Part shown: positions 1,919 through 9,111 of the stretch, piece by piece | How positions within the stretch are numbered: position 1 is the stretch's first letter | Layout: each line of letters starts with the position of its first letter | Assembly: GCA_021789095.1 (NCBI GenBank) | Contig: JAJYJX010000100.1 | Span: 1 to 9,371 of the forward strand | DNA: 9,371 bases | Source of the DNA: a bacterium | Lineage (GTDB): Bacteria; JAMCPX01 | Reading direction: 5' to 3' | Position numbers and translations under genes: made by a program | The notes under the pieces: generated by a model | Seen by the model: only the letters and a program-made list of their open reading frames with translations | The model's database searches: none | Told to the model about the DNA's origin: nothing

Positions 1919-2086
1919 TCATATACCTTTCAGCAAATTTATAACGCTTACATGGCTGACCCCAAGACGAGGGGCTACGGCTCTTATTTTCATACCCTGT
2001 TTAACCAGCTTTAGGGCTTGCACGCGCTTTTTTGATGTAATCCCCGGACATCCGGACTTTTGCCGGAGCGCTTTAACCTTCGTCAA
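1919..2086 (-). pseudogene. HTH fragment resembling a serine-resolvase C-terminus
   Basis: An open frame of 55 codons, too short to be an intact family member. After a basic lead (KALRQKSGCPGITSKKR, about 6-21) comes a clear helix-turn-helix, ALKLVKQGMKIRAVAPRL then GVSHVSVINLLKGI and stop. A Gly/Pro-containing basic linker followed by HTH and an early stop is how serine resolvases end, so the best reading is a C-terminal remnant of one; a transposase or small regulator HTH is possible. The only possible start is TTG 2086, with GAAGG close upstream, overlapping the mqnC stop by 4 nt (TTGA). A real translationally coupled mini-HTH protein therefore cannot be excluded. Aligned with the HTH of the other recombinase remnant, 9 of 27 positions match and most others are conservative. 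Confidence 0.5.
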
Positions 2087-3123
2087 AATACCTTCAGAGT
2101 GTCGTAAAACGTATTGCGCTGGACAGGTGTGAACCCTGCGTCCTTTATGAGCTGCACGATCTCGTCCCGCTGTGCCACCAACCTGTGCCCTGCAAGCCTC
2201 ATTACGTTCTCTTCAAAAAGCAGGCTGCCCAGATCGTTTGCTCCGAAGTACAATGAAAGCTGGCCTATGTCCTTGCCCTGGGACGACCATGATGCCTGTA
2301 CGTTCTCAAAATTATCAAGATAAAGCCGTGCAAGGGCAACGATCCGCAGATACATCTCAGCGCTGTGCACTGCTGTAATCTTTTTGCCGAGCGCGGTGTT
2401 TGCCGGTTTGAAGTCCCATGCTATAAATGCCGTAAAGCCGTGCGTTTTGTCCTGCAGCTTTCGCAGCCTGTCAAGGTGCTCCACAATCTCTTCAGGTGTT
2501 TCCACATGCCCGTACATCATGGTTGCTGTTGTTGGTATGCCCATGCCGTGTGCGGTTTCCATCACGGACAGCCATGCATCAACGGGAGGTTTCGCAGGGC
2601 TTATGGCCTTCCTGACCCGCTCCACAAGAACTTCAGCCCCGCCGCCTGGTATTGACATGAGCCCTGCCGACCTTAATTCCGCAATAACGTCTTTTACATT
2701 CATGGCCGAAACCTCTGCCATCCTTATGATCTCAGGCGGAGAGAACGCATGTATGTGCATACCAGGGTAGTTGTCCCTTATGAATGAAATAAACGATGTG
2801 TAATAATCCAGTTTTAGATCAGGATGCATGCCGCCCTGCAGCAGTACCGTTGTAACGCCGTTTTCAGATGCCGCATCAAGCTTGTTCCTGAGTTCTTTTA
2901 AGTCCATTACGTATGCATCCTTGTGACCTTTCGGCCTGTAAAACGCGCAGAAAAGGCACCCGACATCGCAGACATTTGTATAATTTATGTTCGTGTCCAT
3001 GACAAAGCTTACAACATGCTCAGGATGCACGGACATTCTCGTATCATGAGCATGCCTGCCGAGTGAAAGCAGGGGCTCTGATTTGAATAATTTTATCGCT
3101 TCCGCTTTAGTCAATCTTTTCAT
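2083..3123 (-). CDS. mqnC: Cyclic dehypoxanthinyl futalosine synthase MqnC (radical SAM)
   Basis: A 346-residue cytoplasmic radical SAM enzyme of the futalosine route to menaquinone, converting dehypoxanthine futalosine to its cyclic form. The 4Fe-4S motif C-x3-C-x2-C is Cys52, Cys56, Cys59 in NYTNVCDVGCLFCAFYR. Other MqnC landmarks are LLQGGMHPDLKLDYY (about 94-108), HAFSPPEI, SIPGGGAEVLVERVR, TTATMMYGHVETPEE, QASWSSQGKDIGQL and FGANDLGSLLFEENV. The phrase CAFYR and the QASW block favour MqnC over its paralogue MqnE. Length and ends match the family. It is the last gene of the chaperone block, 21 nt after the receiver gene, with only a weak ribosome site (GGAT). No other menaquinone gene is in the window, so co-expression with chaperones is notable. 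Function is confident; the regulatory link is inferred. Confidence 0.95.
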   Translation of the reverse strand: MKRLTKAEAIKLFKSEPLLSLGRHAHDTRMSVHPEHVVSFVMDTNINYTNVCDVGCLFCAFYRPKGHKDAYVMDLKELRNKLDAASENGVTTVLLQGGMHPDLKLDYYTSFISFIRDNYPGMHIHAFSPPEIIRMAEVSAMNVKDVIAELRSAGLMSIPGGGAEVLVERVRKAISPAKPPVDAWLSVMETAHGMGIPTTATMMYGHVETPEEIVEHLDRLRKLQDKTHGFTAFIAWDFKPANTALGKKITAVHSAEMYLRIVALARLYLDNFENVQASWSSQGKDIGQLSLYFGANDLGSLLFEENVMRLAGHRLVAQRDEIVQLIKDAGFTPVQRNTFYDTLKVF

Positions 3124-3144
3124 TGATCCAGGATATGGTGAGTA

Positions 3145-3711
3145 TTATGCAACAGGACGGATCCTGTTTATGACATCAAGCAGCCTCTTGCCGAATTGCT
3201 CCTTATCAGCGGTGTTTCCCTTGTTAAGGTATGCAGCCGGTCTTGTGATATCCATTATCTTCTTGAAATTCTCGTCACATTTTACAACAGAGAAGAACAC
3301 GATTGGTATTTTCTGGGCTAACTTAAGGCCGGCTTCCAGCGCGCGTACCGTCCTTGCCGCATCGATGCCGTTTATAATGGGCATATTTACATCAAGTATT
3401 ATAAGATCAACCTGCGCCTTGTTTTTAAGCAGTTCACTGAGCTGTGAAAGGAAAACCCTGCCGTTTTCACTCTCTATAATATCTTTTGCTATACCGCTGC
3501 TGGTAATAAGTTCGGTAACCTGTTTTCTTGTTATTGCAGAATCATCGGAAATGAGAACCCTGTCCATTGTCTTCTTTTTGAACTCTTTCTGGGACAGATC
3601 AAGACCGCATTCAGTGCAGTGTATTCTCTCCTCCCCACCTGTTATCATAACAAATGGATCGACCATCTCGCCGCAGCTTGGACAAAAGACTTTTGGAACC
3701 CGGTCTGTCAT
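3145..3711 (-). CDS. Zinc-ribbon plus receiver-domain protein (single-domain response regulator)
   Basis: A 188-residue protein with two parts. Residues 1-45 form a zinc-ribbon-like module: Cys10-x2-Cys13 and Cys32-x2-Cys35. Residues about 50-185 are a CheY-like receiver: acidic pair Asp56/Asp57 (RVLISDDSA), phosphoacceptor Asp107 (LIILDVNMPIING), Ser141 (VFFS) and Lys164 (YLNKG). All positions needed for phosphorylation are present. There is no output domain after the receiver, so it may act through the zinc ribbon or by protein contact. No histidine kinase gene is nearby. It starts 10 nt after dnaJ and ends 21 nt before mqnC. ATG 3711 has no Shine-Dalgarno (upstream bases are pyrimidine-rich), suggesting reinitiation after dnaJ. 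The domain reading is firm; the pathway it serves is unknown. Confidence 0.85.
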   Translation of the reverse strand: MTDRVPKVFCPSCGEMVDPFVMITGGEERIHCTECGLDLSQKEFKKKTMDRVLISDDSAITRKQVTELITSSGIAKDIIESENGRVFLSQLSELLKNKAQVDLIILDVNMPIINGIDAARTVRALEAGLKLAQKIPIVFFSVVKCDENFKKIMDITRPAAYLNKGNTADKEQFGKRLLDVINRIRPVA

Positions 3712-3721
3712 ATAGGGAGAT

Positions 3722-4825
3722 TTATTGGAAAAGGTCCTTTACCTTGTCAAAGACGCCTTTTGAATTGTTCTTGCTATAAATCCTTGAGATTTCATCAAAC
3801 TCTTTTAATAGTTCTTTCTGCCTGTCCGTTATATGCTTTGGTACTTCTATGTGAATCCTTATGATCTGATCGCCCTTTCTTTTATCATAAGGGCTGCTCA
3901 CGCCTTTATGTTTCAAAACAAATACCTCGCCTGAATCCGTACCGGCAGGGATCTTCAGTTCTTCCTCACCGTACAGCGTATGCACCTTTATTGCATCACC
4001 GAGTATTGCCTGTGCATAAGATATGAATATGTCCACTATAATATCCTGCCCATCCCTCTTGAAAACCGGGTGATCCTTGACCTTTATAATTACATGCAGA
4101 TCCCCTGCGGGACCGCCGTTATAACCCTCGCTGCCCTTTCCCTGTATCCTGAGCACGCTGTCGTTATCAACACCGGGAGGTATATGAACCTTTATTGTTT
4201 CCTCTTTTAAAACCCTGCCGGTACCGCTGCAGTCCCTGCATTTGTCGGGTATCTCATAACCGCTTCCGTTGCATACGCGGCATGTCTTTGTCACGGTAAG
4301 GAACCCCTGCCGGTAGTTTACCTGACCTGCTCCGCCGCATGTCCTGCATGTGTTCGGTTTTGTCCCCGGCTTTGCACCAGTACCGGAACAAGCATCGCAT
4401 ACACCGGTGCGTTTTATATTGAATTCCTTTTCTATACCCATGACAGCCTGTTCGAATTCAAGTTCAAGCACTGCTTCAACATCCTTGCCCCTGACCTTTC
4501 TGTTCCTTGAGGACCTTCTGCCGCCGAAGAAATCGCTGAACACATCGCCTATCAGATCTTCAAATATGGATCCGCCGAAAATATCTTCGTGTCCGGTCCC
4601 TATTCTCTCAAAATTATCGCCGTACATGTCATAACTGGACCGCTTGTCCGGATTGCCCAAAACGCTGTAAGCCTCGTTTATCTCCTTGAACTTTTCCTCC
4701 GAGGTCTTGTCACCGTTTGTCCTGTCAGGATGATACTGCAGTGCAAGCTTTCTGTATGCCTTCTTTATATCTGCGTCTGCCGCATCCCTCGGCACACCGA
4801 GTATTTCGTAATAATTCCTTTTCAT
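3722..4825 (-). CDS. dnaJ: Chaperone protein DnaJ (Hsp40)
   Basis: A 367-residue type I Hsp40 co-chaperone that delivers substrates to DnaK and stimulates its ATPase. Numbering from ATG 4825: the J domain spans about 3-68 with His32-Pro33-Asp34 (QYHPDRTNGD). A short Gly/Phe stretch at about 74-102 (GHEDIFGGSIFE) follows, then a complete zinc region with four C-x2-C pairs (about 143-146, 160-163, 182-185, 196-199). Substrate-binding C-terminal domains run to about 340. The dnaK stop and this ATG share one base (TGATG), typical of translational coupling. A TTG one codon upstream is also in frame, but ATG is preferred. A purine-rich GAGGAG lies about 14 nt before the ATG, rather far. The Gly/Phe region is shorter than in E. 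coli DnaJ (376 residues overall); otherwise the protein is canonical. Confidence 0.97.
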   Translation of the reverse strand: MKRNYYEILGVPRDAADADIKKAYRKLALQYHPDRTNGDKTSEEKFKEINEAYSVLGNPDKRSSYDMYGDNFERIGTGHEDIFGGSIFEDLIGDVFSDFFGGRRSSRNRKVRGKDVEAVLELEFEQAVMGIEKEFNIKRTGVCDACSGTGAKPGTKPNTCRTCGGAGQVNYRQGFLTVTKTCRVCNGSGYEIPDKCRDCSGTGRVLKEETIKVHIPPGVDNDSVLRIQGKGSEGYNGGPAGDLHVIIKVKDHPVFKRDGQDIIVDIFISYAQAILGDAIKVHTLYGEEELKIPAGTDSGEVFVLKHKGVSSPYDKRKGDQIIRIHIEVPKHITDRQKELLKEFDEISRIYSKNNSKGVFDKVKDLFQ

Positions 4826-6654
4826 CAATCTGCTTTCTTCTCCTCTGCTTCGACCTTTTGATAGAGCATCTCAGCTATCTTATGAGACAATGAGCTCAGT
4901 GTTTTAACCGCTGTGTCAAGAACTCCGACATCATCGGTATCCCTGTTCTTGCGCAGGTCCTCCATTGCCGCCACAATGTTATTATAATCATCTTTGGAAA
5001 GCATATCCTTGTATTCGTTCAGGGAGCGCGTTGTCGCATATATGAGTCCGTCTGCCTTATTGCGCAGATCAACAAGTTCCTTCCTTTTCTTATCATCCAT
5101 CTCATGCTGCTGTGCGTCGCTGATGATCTTATTTATCTGTTCCTCGGACAATCCGCTGCCAGCCGTAATCTTCACCTTCTGTTCCTTGCCTGTACCGAGA
5201 TCCTTTGCCCTGACATGCAGTATGCCGTTTGCATCTATGTCAAAAGTCACATCTATCTGCGGCAGCCCCCTGGGAGCAGGCGGAATGCCGATAAGCTGGA
5301 ACTTTGCAAGGCTCTGATTGTCCTTTGCAAGCTCCCTCTCTCCCTGCAGGATATGTATATTAACAAAATCCTGGTCATCTTCAGTGGTTGAAAAGACCAT
5401 GGTTTTCTTTGTAGGAACAGTGGTATTCCTCGGTATAATCTTTGTAAAGACGCCCCCCTGTGTCTCCACGCCGAGGGAAAGGGGCGTTACATCAAGCAGT
5501 ATGACATCTTTTACTGTGCCTTTCAGCACAGCGCCCTGGATAGCTGCACCCATGGCAACGACCTCATCCGGATTAACTTCCTTCACAGGCGGCTTGCCGA
5601 AAATTGCTTCTGCCTTTTTTACAACCGCGGGCATCCTGGTCATGCCTCCGACAAGAATTACATTATTTATGTCCTCCCTTTTAAGGTTTGCGTCCTTCAG
5701 TGCAAGTTCACAGGGTTCTGCAAGTCTATCCAGAAAATGCTGAACAAGGGATTCTAACTGCGTACGCGTTATTGTCTTTGTAAGGTGCTTTGGTCCCGAT
5801 GCATCGGCTGCAATAAAAGGAAGGTTGATCTCTGTCTCCTTCAATGTTGAAAGCTCCATCTTTGCCTTTTCCGAAGCATCCTTTACCCTCTGCATTGCCA
5901 TTTTGTCCCCGAAAATGTCAATGGACGTTTGCTGTTTAAAATCCTCAACAAGCCAGCCGGACAATGCCCTGTCAAAGTCTTCACCACCGAGAAATGTATT
6001 ACCGTTTGTAGCCAGTACCTCAAAAACACCATCGTTGAGCTCAAGTATGGATATATCAAAGGTACCGCCGCCCAGGTCAAATACGGCTATTTTAAGGTTC
6101 TGGCTCTTGTTTAGTCCGTAGGTAAGCGAGGCCGCAGTAGGTTCATTTATAATCCTGAGAACATTCAATCCTGCTATCCTTCCGGCATCCTTTGTCGCCT
6201 GCCTCTGGCTGTCATTGAAGTACGCCGGTACCGTGATAACAGCGTCCTCTATCTTTTCACCAAGAAAATCCTCGGCATATTCCTTCATCCTGGACAGTAT
6301 ATATGCCGATATCTCCGACGGGCTCATTTTCTTACTCCCGACCTCAACCCATGCATCATCATTATCCGCAGGTATGATCCTGTAAGATGCTATCTTCTTT
6401 GTTTGATCAACCTCATGGGAATTAAACTTCCTTCCTATCAGCCTTTTAACCGCAAAAATGGTATTTTCGGCATTTGTAACAGCCTGCCGTTTGGCAAGAT
6501 TGCCCACCAGCAAGGTCCCCTTCTCATTTATTGCAACCATAGACGGAGTTGTTCTTCCGCCCTCTGAATTGGGAATAACTACAGGTGTATCACCTTCCAT
6601 ATAAGCGACACAGGAATACGATGTGCCAAGGTCAATACCTATTGTTCTGCCCAT
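4825..6654 (-). CDS. dnaK: Chaperone protein DnaK (Hsp70)
   Basis: A 609-residue ATP-dependent cytosolic chaperone. The nucleotide-binding domain spans about 1-380: phosphate-1 loop [11 protein letters not shown] (6-16), RRLIG-type motif KRLIGRKF (70-77), [13 protein letters not shown] (142-154), phosphate-2 loop [11 protein letters not shown] (192-202) and [10 protein letters not shown] (335-344). The hydrophobic linker [12 protein letters not shown] (384-395) leads into the substrate-binding beta domain and a helical lid (about 500-600). The commonest GTTNS of phosphate-1 is GTSYS here (Ser12, Tyr13). The protein ends shortly after the lid (EAEEKKAD), without the disordered Gly-rich tail and acidic terminal motif of E. 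coli DnaK (638 residues). ATG 6654 has a GGGGG run 3 nt upstream. It lies 58 nt after grpE and overlaps dnaJ by one base. Identity is certain; the missing tail suggests altered client handling (inference). Confidence 0.98.
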
Positions 6655-6711: not shown

Positions 6712-7467
6712 TTAATTCTTTTGCTCTTCAGCTATATTCTCCGGAACAATCTTCTTGCCGACTATTACCTTCGCAGGTCTTAGCAGCCTGTCATTATAAA
6801 TATAACCCTTTTCCACCTCCCTTATGATTACATTGTCTGCGTAGTCCTCTCCTTCTTCCACGCCCAGACCCTCATGGAAATTTGGATCAAATACCTCTCC
6901 CACGGTATGGACAGCACTCACACCATAGCCTTCTATGACTTTCTTGAGAAGTTTCAAGGTAAGCTCGACTCCCTCGTAAAGACTGTCTTTCTGTGAATGC
7001 TTTTTTGAATATTCAATAGCACGCTCAAGGTTATCAATAACAGGCAGGAGCTCCCGGATCAGGGTTTCATATCCATACTTCAATTGCTCAAGCTTTTCTT
7101 TATGGACCCTCTTTTTGTAATTATCCATATCAGCTTCCGCCCTCAGCCACTTATCTTTGTACGCTGCTGATTCCCTGCCCAGCTGCTCGCTCTTGTTTTT
7201 CAGGCTGTCGATTTCTAACAATTGGGGTTCTTGAGGCTGTACAGGGTCTTTTGACTCACCTCCCTGTGCACTACTGACTTCAGGTCCTGCCTGTGTTTCT
7301 GCTCCAACAGGCTCCTTTAATTCTGGTTCCTTCTCTGTGGTATCCTGCTGAGGGGAAGCTTTTTCCTCAACTGTCTGCTCTTCAACCGTATGTTCCCTGT
7401 CTTTTTGATCATCCTTATTGTTTTCCATTGTTTTATTCCTGTTTCTTTTTTTTCTTTTAACAGCCAT
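6712..7467 (-). CDS. grpE: Nucleotide exchange factor GrpE
   Basis: The ADP/ATP exchange factor for DnaK, acting as a dimer. From ATG 7467 it is 251 residues, longer than the usual 180-210 because of an acidic, Glu/Pro/Gln-rich disordered N-terminal part (about 25-85). Next come the long dimerisation helix (about 88-160, including WLRAEADMDNYKKRV) and the C-terminal beta domain with the GrpE signature (FDPNFHEGLGV, REVEKGYIYNDRLLRPAKV). Start choice: adjacent ATGs at 7470 and 7467 follow CGGAG; spacing (5 nt) favours 7467. ATG 7428 (MENNKDDQ), with AGGA 8 nt upstream, is also good and would remove an odd basic leader, KRKKRNRNK, encoded by an A-rich tract. It heads the chaperone block. No hrcA gene lies next to it and no CIRCE element precedes it. 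Confidence 0.95.
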   Translation of the reverse strand: MAVKRKKRNRNKTMENNKDDQKDREHTVEEQTVEEKASPQQDTTEKEPELKEPVGAETQAGPEVSSAQGGESKDPVQPQEPQLLEIDSLKNKSEQLGRESAAYKDKWLRAEADMDNYKKRVHKEKLEQLKYGYETLIRELLPVIDNLERAIEYSKKHSQKDSLYEGVELTLKLLKKVIEGYGVSAVHTVGEVFDPNFHEGLGVEEGEDYADNVIIREVEKGYIYNDRLLRPAKVIVGKKIVPENIAEEQKN

Positions 7468-7493
7468 CATAACTCCGTTGTAAATATTTTAAT

Positions 7494-7680: not shown

Positions 7681-9111
7681 GTGTTTTGGAAATCCTTTAA
7701 TACATACATACATAAAGCATATTCCGTACTGGCCGGCTTATATCCGGGCAAAATATTTATCAGGCTAAGTCTGACCAACAAAATGCTCACAGGATACGCC
7801 ATACTTATCATAACATCTATCATTATATTCGTATATGCAGAATCCAGTTTTCAGCAGCTCATAAGCTTAAACAGGAGCATAGTAAGTGTGGATATAACCA
7901 TACAGAAAGCAGCACGCGATATGCTGGATATCCTTATGGACCAGGATAACTATGAGAAACGCTACCTTATACTTAAAAGTCCCGATATGATGAACCTTTT
8001 CTGGAAACGGGGAGAAGCTTTTCACCAATGGCTGAATAAGTTATGGGATATCCGCCATAAGAACGGCGCAACGATTGAAGAACTCGAAGAACTCGGTGAG
8101 GTTGAGAAAATTGACGGCTTATATAAGGATTACGAAGGGATGATCAGGAGGGAAGTGGATCTGGTAAAAACAGGCAAAATGAGAAAAGCTTATACCCTTT
8201 CAAATAACGAAATTAAGAAAATCCTTGATAAGCTTGTAGATTCGCTGGACAGAATGTCCACAAGCGCAAAAAATTATGAAGAGTTAAAAATGAGACTGAT
8301 CAGTGTTATGGGGCCGGGTGTATTTTTACGTACCATAGCCCTCTGGATTGCAAGTATAGTAATAGCAGTCTCTGTAGGATTACTGGTAACGTATCATATC
8401 ACCTCATCCATACATAAACTTAAGATAGTAACAGAGCACATTGCCGACGGGGATTTTGATTATGATCCGCAGATACATACGTCCGATGAGATCGGCACTC
8501 TGTCAGAGGCGTTTATCACCATGGGCAAACGTCTCAAGAAACTCGAAAAGATGCACCTGGATGCCAGTCCGCTCACCCGCTTACCCGGCGGTCTGGCCAT
8601 TGAGAACATGCTGCAAAAAAGGATCGATACAGGTCAACCGATAGCATTTTGCCTGGTGGATCTCGATAACTTCAAGGCATTCAATGACCAGTATGGTTAT
8701 GCAAGGGGTAATCTGGTGATCAGGGAAACTGCGAGGATTGTTGAAAAAGCTGTCAAGTCAAAGGGCATTACCGATGATTTTGTGGGACATATAGGCGGCG
8801 ATGATTTTGTGGTAATTACAGTGCCTTCCCGTATGCATGATATAAGCAAGGAGATTATTAATCAATTCGGCATGGTAATGCCGCAGTTTTATGATGCAAA
8901 AGACCGCGAAAAAGGATATATACTCGGTAAAAACAGGCAAGGGGTTGAGATACAGTTCCCAATCATGACAATTTCTATAGCCATTGTAACAAATGAAAGG
9001 CGCAAGCTTACGAATTCAATGGAGGTCTCGGCAATCGCTGCGGAACTAAAAGACTATGCCAAGACATTCCCTAAGAATATTTATGTAATAGATAAAAGGA
9101 GAACAACGTGA
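7681..9111 (+). CDS. Membrane-bound diguanylate cyclase-like protein (HAMP-GGDEF)
   Basis: A 476-residue inner-membrane protein predicted to make cyclic di-GMP from GTP. Membrane segment 1 is about 36-52 (YAILIITSIIIFVY). An all-helical sensor region of about 160 residues (54-215), resembling four-helix-bundle ligand domains, should lie in the periplasm. Membrane segment 2 is about 217-238, HAMP about 239-292 (TSDEIGTLSEAF), then GGDEF about 297-470. Catalytic features are LTRLPGG (298-304), DLDNFKAFND (327-336) with metal-binding Asp327, and the signature GGDDF (372-376), an accepted active variant. The inhibitory-site Arg is absent: ITDD replaces R-x-x-D before the signature. GTG 7681 is the earliest start, as an in-frame TAA lies 3 nt before it, and it has a poor ribosome site. 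ATG 7783 is the next ATG but would cut the usual leader before segment 1. The stop overlaps the next gene by 4 nt. Confidence 0.88.
   Translation: MFWKSFNTYIHKAYSVLAGLYPGKIFIRLSLTNKMLTGYAILIITSIIIFVYAESSFQQLISLNRSIVSVDITIQKAARDMLDILMDQDNYEKRYLILKSPDMMNLFWKRGEAFHQWLNKLWDIRHKNGATIEELEELGEVEKIDGLYKDYEGMIRREVDLVKTGKMRKAYTLSNNEIKKILDKLVDSLDRMSTSAKNYEELKMRLISVMGPGVFLRTIALWIASIVIAVSVGLLVTYHITSSIHKLKIVTEHIADGDFDYDPQIHTSDEIGTLSEAFITMGKRLKKLEKMHLDASPLTRLPGGLAIENMLQKRIDTGQPIAFCLVDLDNFKAFNDQYGYARGNLVIRETARIVEKAVKSKGITDDFVGHIGGDDFVVITVPSRMHDISKEIINQFGMVMPQFYDAKDREKGYILGKNRQGVEIQFPIMTISIAIVTNERRKLTNSMEVSAIAAELKDYAKTFPKNIYVIDKRRTT
9096..9101 (+). promoter_or_regulatory. Ribosome binding site fixing the lipoprotein GTG start
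   Basis: AAGGAG ends 6 nt before GTG 9108, ideal spacing, and lies inside the last codons of the GGDEF gene. It supports a GTG start that overlaps the upstream stop (GTGA) over ATG 9168, which would discard the lipoprotein signal peptide. Confidence 0.75.

Follow-up and report, generated by a model that had tools for sequence, protein, structure and literature searches.

The 9,371-nucleotide stretch analysed here (the window; positions 1 to 9,371 of contig JAJYJX010000100.1) encodes a real and strongly conserved protein of signalling type, in which a four-cysteine zinc ribbon is carried on a complete response-regulator receiver. This zinc-ribbon/receiver protein of window 3145..3711 (-) is called ZRR here. 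In the window it lies in a chaperone gene run; elsewhere ZRR stands beside a gene cluster of the AglRQS/Glt type, and a motor-driven envelope complex is better supported than the chaperone as its original partner.

Results

ZRR joins a zinc ribbon to a complete receiver

The features of the window that concern ZRR are given in Table 1. The gene is a single open frame with an ATG start (3711 to 3145, 188 amino acids). Residues 52-154 matched the Pfam receiver model PF00072 (1.5e-11, 44.9 bits against a cut-off of 30.2). Several Pfam zinc-ribbon models matched the N-terminus, all below cut-off, and the arrangement that defines a zinc ribbon, a pair of CXXC knuckles carried by a beta-hairpin fold, was found in the sequence (CPSC...CTEC) together with the AlphaFold2 model, in which strands were placed at residues 8-10, 15-17, 19-24 and 27-32. 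The model was built from nine alignment rows (mean pLDDT 87.9) and consists of these four short strands (8-32) followed by an alternating beta/alpha receiver (49-184). D107 is the last residue of strand 103-107 and S141 that of strand 137-141, and K164 lies just after strand 159-163; these are their places in CheY. In a fold search the receiver superposed on those of CheY and Sln1 (Z 17.5-18.5, 1.9-2.2 A, 119-127 residues); receiver structures made up the matches listed, thus the ribbon was barely probed.

Table 1. Location of ZRR, its domains and its neighbours in the window
Feature	Position	Strand	Evidence
mqnC (cyclic dehypoxanthinyl futalosine synthase), 21 nt downstream of ZRR; adjacent only in genera g1 and g2	2083..3123	-	domain models, gene order
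ZRR-mqnC junction; 12 kb AglRQS/Glt-type cluster at the same place in G002	3124..3144	-	gene-order comparison
ZRR, 188 aa and stop	3145..3711	-	reading frame, Pfam, alignment, AlphaFold2 model, dN/dS
Receiver domain, residues 49-188; D56/D57 acid pocket, D107 phospho-acceptor, S141, K164	3148..3567	-	Pfam, alignment, AlphaFold2 model, fold search
Zinc ribbon, residues 8-40, CPSC-X18-CTEC (C10, C13, C32, C35)	3592..3690	-	Cys alignment, four short strands (8-32), sub-threshold Pfam ribbons
dnaJ, directly upstream of ZRR, 10 nt from dnaJ stop to ZRR start	3722..4828	-	domain models, gene order
dnaK	4825..6654	-	domain models
grpE, first gene of the run	6712..7470	-	domain models

The initial annotation had described a four-Cys ribbon fused to a receiver bearing Asp56, Asp57, Asp107, Ser141 and Lys164, and this description was borne out; C10, C13, C32 and C35 are present, the PF00072 match and the model agree with it, and the active site is complete and conserved in the family. 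The same annotation had held that the protein has no output domain. Domain-model searches of ZRR gave no match to a DNA-binding output domain, but the ribbon could serve as the output itself, and the question is one of definition. No J-domain, GrpE fold, substrate-binding domain or other known Hsp70-binding motif was found among the domain-model matches. The 48-residue N-terminal Cys4 ribbon also removes ZRR from the stand-alone receivers of the CheY type. From the residues present, we infer that the ribbon binds zinc and that ZRR is phosphorylated at D107, for which its active site appears fully equipped.

Conservation and distribution of ZRR

All the genomes compared were assemblies of uncultured organisms. 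ZRR was present in eight of the nine genomes of the window's family, with homologues of 71-82% identity in seven of the eight further genomes. In the genome without a match (G004) the dnaJ match covers residues 1-259 only and the place of ZRR is unreadable, and in G007 the ZRR locus is cut by a contig edge. The scorable pairs, which lie within or reach to genus g2 and within g3, and in several of which dS was saturated, gave dN/dS values of 0.04-0.06 (window against two g2 genomes, dS saturated), 0.06 (G001 against G008) and 0.08 (G002 against G005). ZRR is under strong purifying selection, also in the genera without the envelope complex described below.

The architecture is not confined to the window's family, as full-length homologues with 30-46% identity were found in other families, in G022, G047 (contig MGQK01000082, Deltaproteobacteria bacterium RBG_13_61_14), G056 (contig RFIY01000119, Candidatus Dadabacteria J088) and G051. 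The phylum-level relatives obtainable were three genomes for G047 and one for G022. A profile search of 386 genomes gave 23 positives, representing 17 of 325 genera; the distribution is scattered, not universal. Among the matches listed in the contig-wide scan, those below the best nine loci were mostly generic receivers, and the viral contigs scanned yielded generic receivers only.

All four cysteines are kept in 31 of the 35 members whose N-terminus is covered, the exceptions being three FHA-fused copies and one copy from a Myxococcales MAG. D107 is invariant (37 of 37 aligned members), S/T141 is kept in 34 of 37, K164 in 32 of 37 and the second acid (D57) in 29 of 35 aligned members. Six matches to the family were found in G047, and some paralogues in G047, G192 and G324 are without the acid pair and Lys. 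The family appears to have active and degenerate branches, and the window copy, judged by its residues, is of the active kind. In L047, L172 and L173 (from G047, G192 and G324) an FHA domain replaces the ribbon, and the degenerate receiver has lost the acid pair and Lys and kept the Asp.

The chaperone neighbourhood is specific to one family

The gene order in the window is grpE-dnaK-dnaJ-ZRR-mqnC, and the location of ZRR between dnaJ and mqnC, behind a chaperone run, had been correctly given in the initial annotation. The order grpE-dnaK-dnaJ-ZRR is shared by the window, G001, G002, G003, G005, G006 and G008, from four genera, and the distance from the dnaJ stop to the ZRR start is 3-10 nt across the family loci that cover the junction. 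As this adjacency is conserved in four genera, chance in a single genome does not account for it. Co-transcription of ZRR with the chaperone run is likely and translational coupling to dnaJ is possible. A search of the window's genome gave no HrcA, no CIRCE-like site was found in the window, and counts of promoter-like and terminator-like sequences in the window were close to those in shuffled controls.

Outside the family, no dnaJ, dnaK or grpE gene adjoined a ZRR homologue in the loci examined, the nearest chaperone-like gene being a dnaJ-like gene ~4.3 kb from the homologue in L167. The connection to the Hsp70 system proposed from the window stood in part; dnaJ is adjacent in all four genera of the family, but no chaperone gene adjoins the homologues examined elsewhere, whereas the envelope cluster adjoins ZRR in more than one family. 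The chaperone link is local to the window's family, and a special Hsp70 link in that lineage is possible, not a general rule.

Divergent from grpE, the window encodes a HAMP-GGDEF protein (7681-9111, +) with GGDDF where GGDEF or GGEEF is usual, and a HAMP-GGDEF gene lies beside the chaperone operon also in G001 and G006. At the other end of the window is a toxin-antitoxin-like run (17-1865, -), in which HigA-like HTH and HigB-like frames were recognised by eye, together with an AbiEii-like nucleotidyltransferase (PF08843, 1.8e-14) and a DUF6922 protein (7e-10).

ZRR precedes an AglRQS/Glt-type cluster in three families

In G002, G003 and G005, from two genera of the window's family, ZRR directly precedes an AglRQS/Glt-type cluster on the same strand. 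The order after ZRR is a 506-aa outer-surface-type protein, a 207-aa protein, TPR proteins of 694 (~700) and 1069 (~1070) aa, a TPR protein of 330-410 aa, a ~100-aa (105) protein, ExbB, ExbD, ExbD and a GltG-like protein, inside the gene for which the contig of G005 ends. ExbB and ExbD passed Pfam cut-offs, and the GltG-like protein matched NF033760 (5e-50) and, at 107 bits (cut-off 40), the AgmX/PglI C-terminal domain. This type of cluster is related to the gliding and sporulation machines of Myxococcus. In PMC3169522 a 'core complex' gene set of aglRQS with gltC, D, E and G is given. The gene set next to ZRR matches that 'core complex' as described there, the names GltC, D and E being provisional and drawn partly from TPR repeats, which match many models.

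Two families outside the window's phylum, one of them represented by a Dadabacterium, bring the number in which the cluster adjoins ZRR to three. In these genomes, G056 and G051, ZRR heads a homologous first part of the cluster in the order ZRR, TPR lipoprotein-like gene, then the 207-aa and 700-aa homologues and, in G056, the 1070-aa homologue; their ExbB, ExbD and GltG-like genes lie on other contigs than ZRR. ZRR is thus adjacent to the core cluster in G002, G003, G005, G051 and G056, and not in the window, the g2 genomes or G022, which has the full cluster away from both its ZRR genes.

Seven further genomes without ZRR (L215-L221) have the 207-aa gene directly before the 700-aa (GltC-like) gene; the cluster therefore exists independently of ZRR, which is an added gene. 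Without the families used for model-building, co-occurrence of ZRR with the 207-aa gene was not significant (one shared family, p 0.36); the envelope argument is carried by adjacency.

The 207-aa family precedes the GltC-like gene in many Agl/Glt-type clusters (L215-L221, L254) and might correspond to an additional, unnamed core-complex gene referred to in PMC3169522. In G047 (L039:2337-8363) and G192 (L159:760-6678) the gene after ZRR encodes a TPR protein of ~2,000 aa, the two proteins being 34% identical to each other; a GltI identity for these neighbours was dropped, as only generic TPR models matched.

A probable loss of the cluster from between ZRR and mqnC

The order in G002 is dnaJ-ZRR-cluster (12 kb)-mqnC, with mqnC following gltG and its product 79% identical to MqnC of the window. 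ZRR and mqnC are directly adjacent in the window, G001, G006 and G007. Neither G000 nor the g2 genomes searched (among them G001, 99% complete) yielded the 207-aa gene, a full GltG or a tandem ExbD pair. Most likely the g1/g2 lineage once had the cluster between ZRR and mqnC and then lost it; loss is preferred over gain because the adjacency of ZRR and cluster exists in other families too. Insertion of the cluster between ZRR and mqnC in g3 and g4, with the order of the window ancestral, is a somewhat unlikely course of events. An unrooted DnaK and DnaJ tree separates g1 and g2 from g3 and g4, and on it one gain explains the data as well as one loss; however, this split is weakly supported (SH-aLRT 96, bootstrap 63), the outgroup is very distant, and the ZRR tree instead groups the window with g3. 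In G051 and G056, too, ZRR heads the homologous cluster, which favours an older adjacency.

Discussion

We tentatively propose, at a little under an even chance, that ZRR is a response regulator working by protein contact which evolved with an AglRQS/Glt-type envelope motor, and that in the window's lineage the complex was lost and ZRR retasked. A histidine kinase would phosphorylate D107 of cytoplasmic ZRR, the receiver would switch via S141 and neighbouring helices, and the N-terminal ribbon would be the partner-docking (output) module, with output by protein contact, not DNA binding. A receiver without DNA-binding output, carrying a conserved small Cys4 module, is most simply read as a phospho-switched adaptor. 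The window's genome has ~20 HATPase_c genes, and a divergent copy in G056 (L048) follows CheY, Hpt/HATPase and PAS-HisKA genes on the same strand, which supports two-component input. ZRR would regulate the trans-envelope motor where both are present, adjacency making the motor complex its likeliest target there. In g1 and g2 the complex would have been lost from beside mqnC, and ZRR, kept in the grpE-dnaK-dnaJ run, may now serve another cytoplasmic target, for which the chaperone is a candidate. The window's genome and g2 are without the complex yet retain ZRR, which therefore cannot depend on it; the neighbours also differ in most other ZRR loci (G047, G022, G158, G366 and others), which counts against the envelope reading. 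In its fullest form, with ZRR a phospho-controlled regulator of AglRQS/Glt-type motors in several uncultured phyla, the ribbon docking on the inner-membrane part, and chaperone coupling after motor loss in the window's lineage, the proposal is to be regarded as unlikely.

Could ZRR instead be a dedicated partner of DnaK-DnaJ in the window's lineage, co-translated with DnaJ and modulating the chaperone, or folded by it, on a phospho-signal? The short gap to dnaJ persists in every covering assembly of four genera despite a changed downstream neighbour, and dnaJ is the only linkage common to all genera of the family. However, this evidence comes from four genera of one family, same-strand neighbours often stay together without a functional link, the loci examined outside the family have no chaperone gene adjoining, and ZRR has no J-domain, substrate-binding or known Hsp70 motif; the partnership appears rather doubtful. 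The mixed neighbours across the ZRR family (EngB, Ffh, UvrA, MetG, glutaredoxin/rubrerythrin, CheD), its scattered presence and its paralogues would suit an orphan response regulator of ordinary type and broad role, to which both neighbourhoods are incidental. To head homologous envelope clusters from the same 5' side in three families, with a conserved dnaJ linkage in addition, is hard to expect of such a protein, and we find this explanation fairly improbable. It is very unlikely that the ribbon is a redox or zinc sensor gating the receiver. The Cys4 set is conserved, and in G099 (L166:5597-7092) ZRR has a glutaredoxin gene 20 nt upstream and a rubrerythrin-like gene (assigned by eye) downstream on the other strand, but redox-gene neighbours were seen in one lineage only and structural zinc ribbons are far commoner.

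ZRR shares with the CheY-type single-domain regulators the receiver fold, a complete active site and the lack of a DNA-binding domain, and its divergent copy lies in a CheY/Hpt-kinase operon (G056 L048); it differs from them in the family-wide N-terminal Cys4 ribbon. GltJ (AgmX) is a gliding protein whose N-terminal zinc ribbon docks a regulator. GltJ sits in the membrane and has a TonB-like tail, whereas ZRR is soluble and carries a receiver. The TackOD1 response regulators of archaea and bacteria, reported near type IV pilus loci in thaumarchaea, have a cysteine-rich output domain and thus combine, as ZRR does, a receiver with a cysteine domain resembling a zinc ribbon; in TackOD1 ~11 Cys are conserved, in five CXXC and an HXXC, but ZRR has a single four-Cys ribbon and falls outside that group (PMC5847659). 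RomR and FrzS of Myxococcus are, according to their abstracts, receiver proteins and use protein contact to control surface motility; FrzS is without the phospho-acceptor Asp that ZRR has as D107, and no zinc ribbon is mentioned in those abstracts, the comparison being by description only (PMC3441718, PMC1974792). The cluster adjacent to ZRR shares with the AglRQS/Glt core complex an ExbB, two ExbD, a GltG-like and several TPR proteins, but no zinc-ribbon/receiver gene was found in the core complex as the accessible part of PMC3169522 describes it, and ZRR is an extra 5' gene in three families. Among the titles and abstracts searched, mostly from outside the subscription journals, none described a protein joining a zinc ribbon to a receiver or a response regulator encoded in a dnaK operon.

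In the window's lineage, ZRR in an Hsp70 operon without the machine offers a natural test between a chaperone role and another one. A phosphorylatable regulator heading the cluster in unrelated families would, if true, be a first handle on how the core complex is switched outside the myxobacteria.
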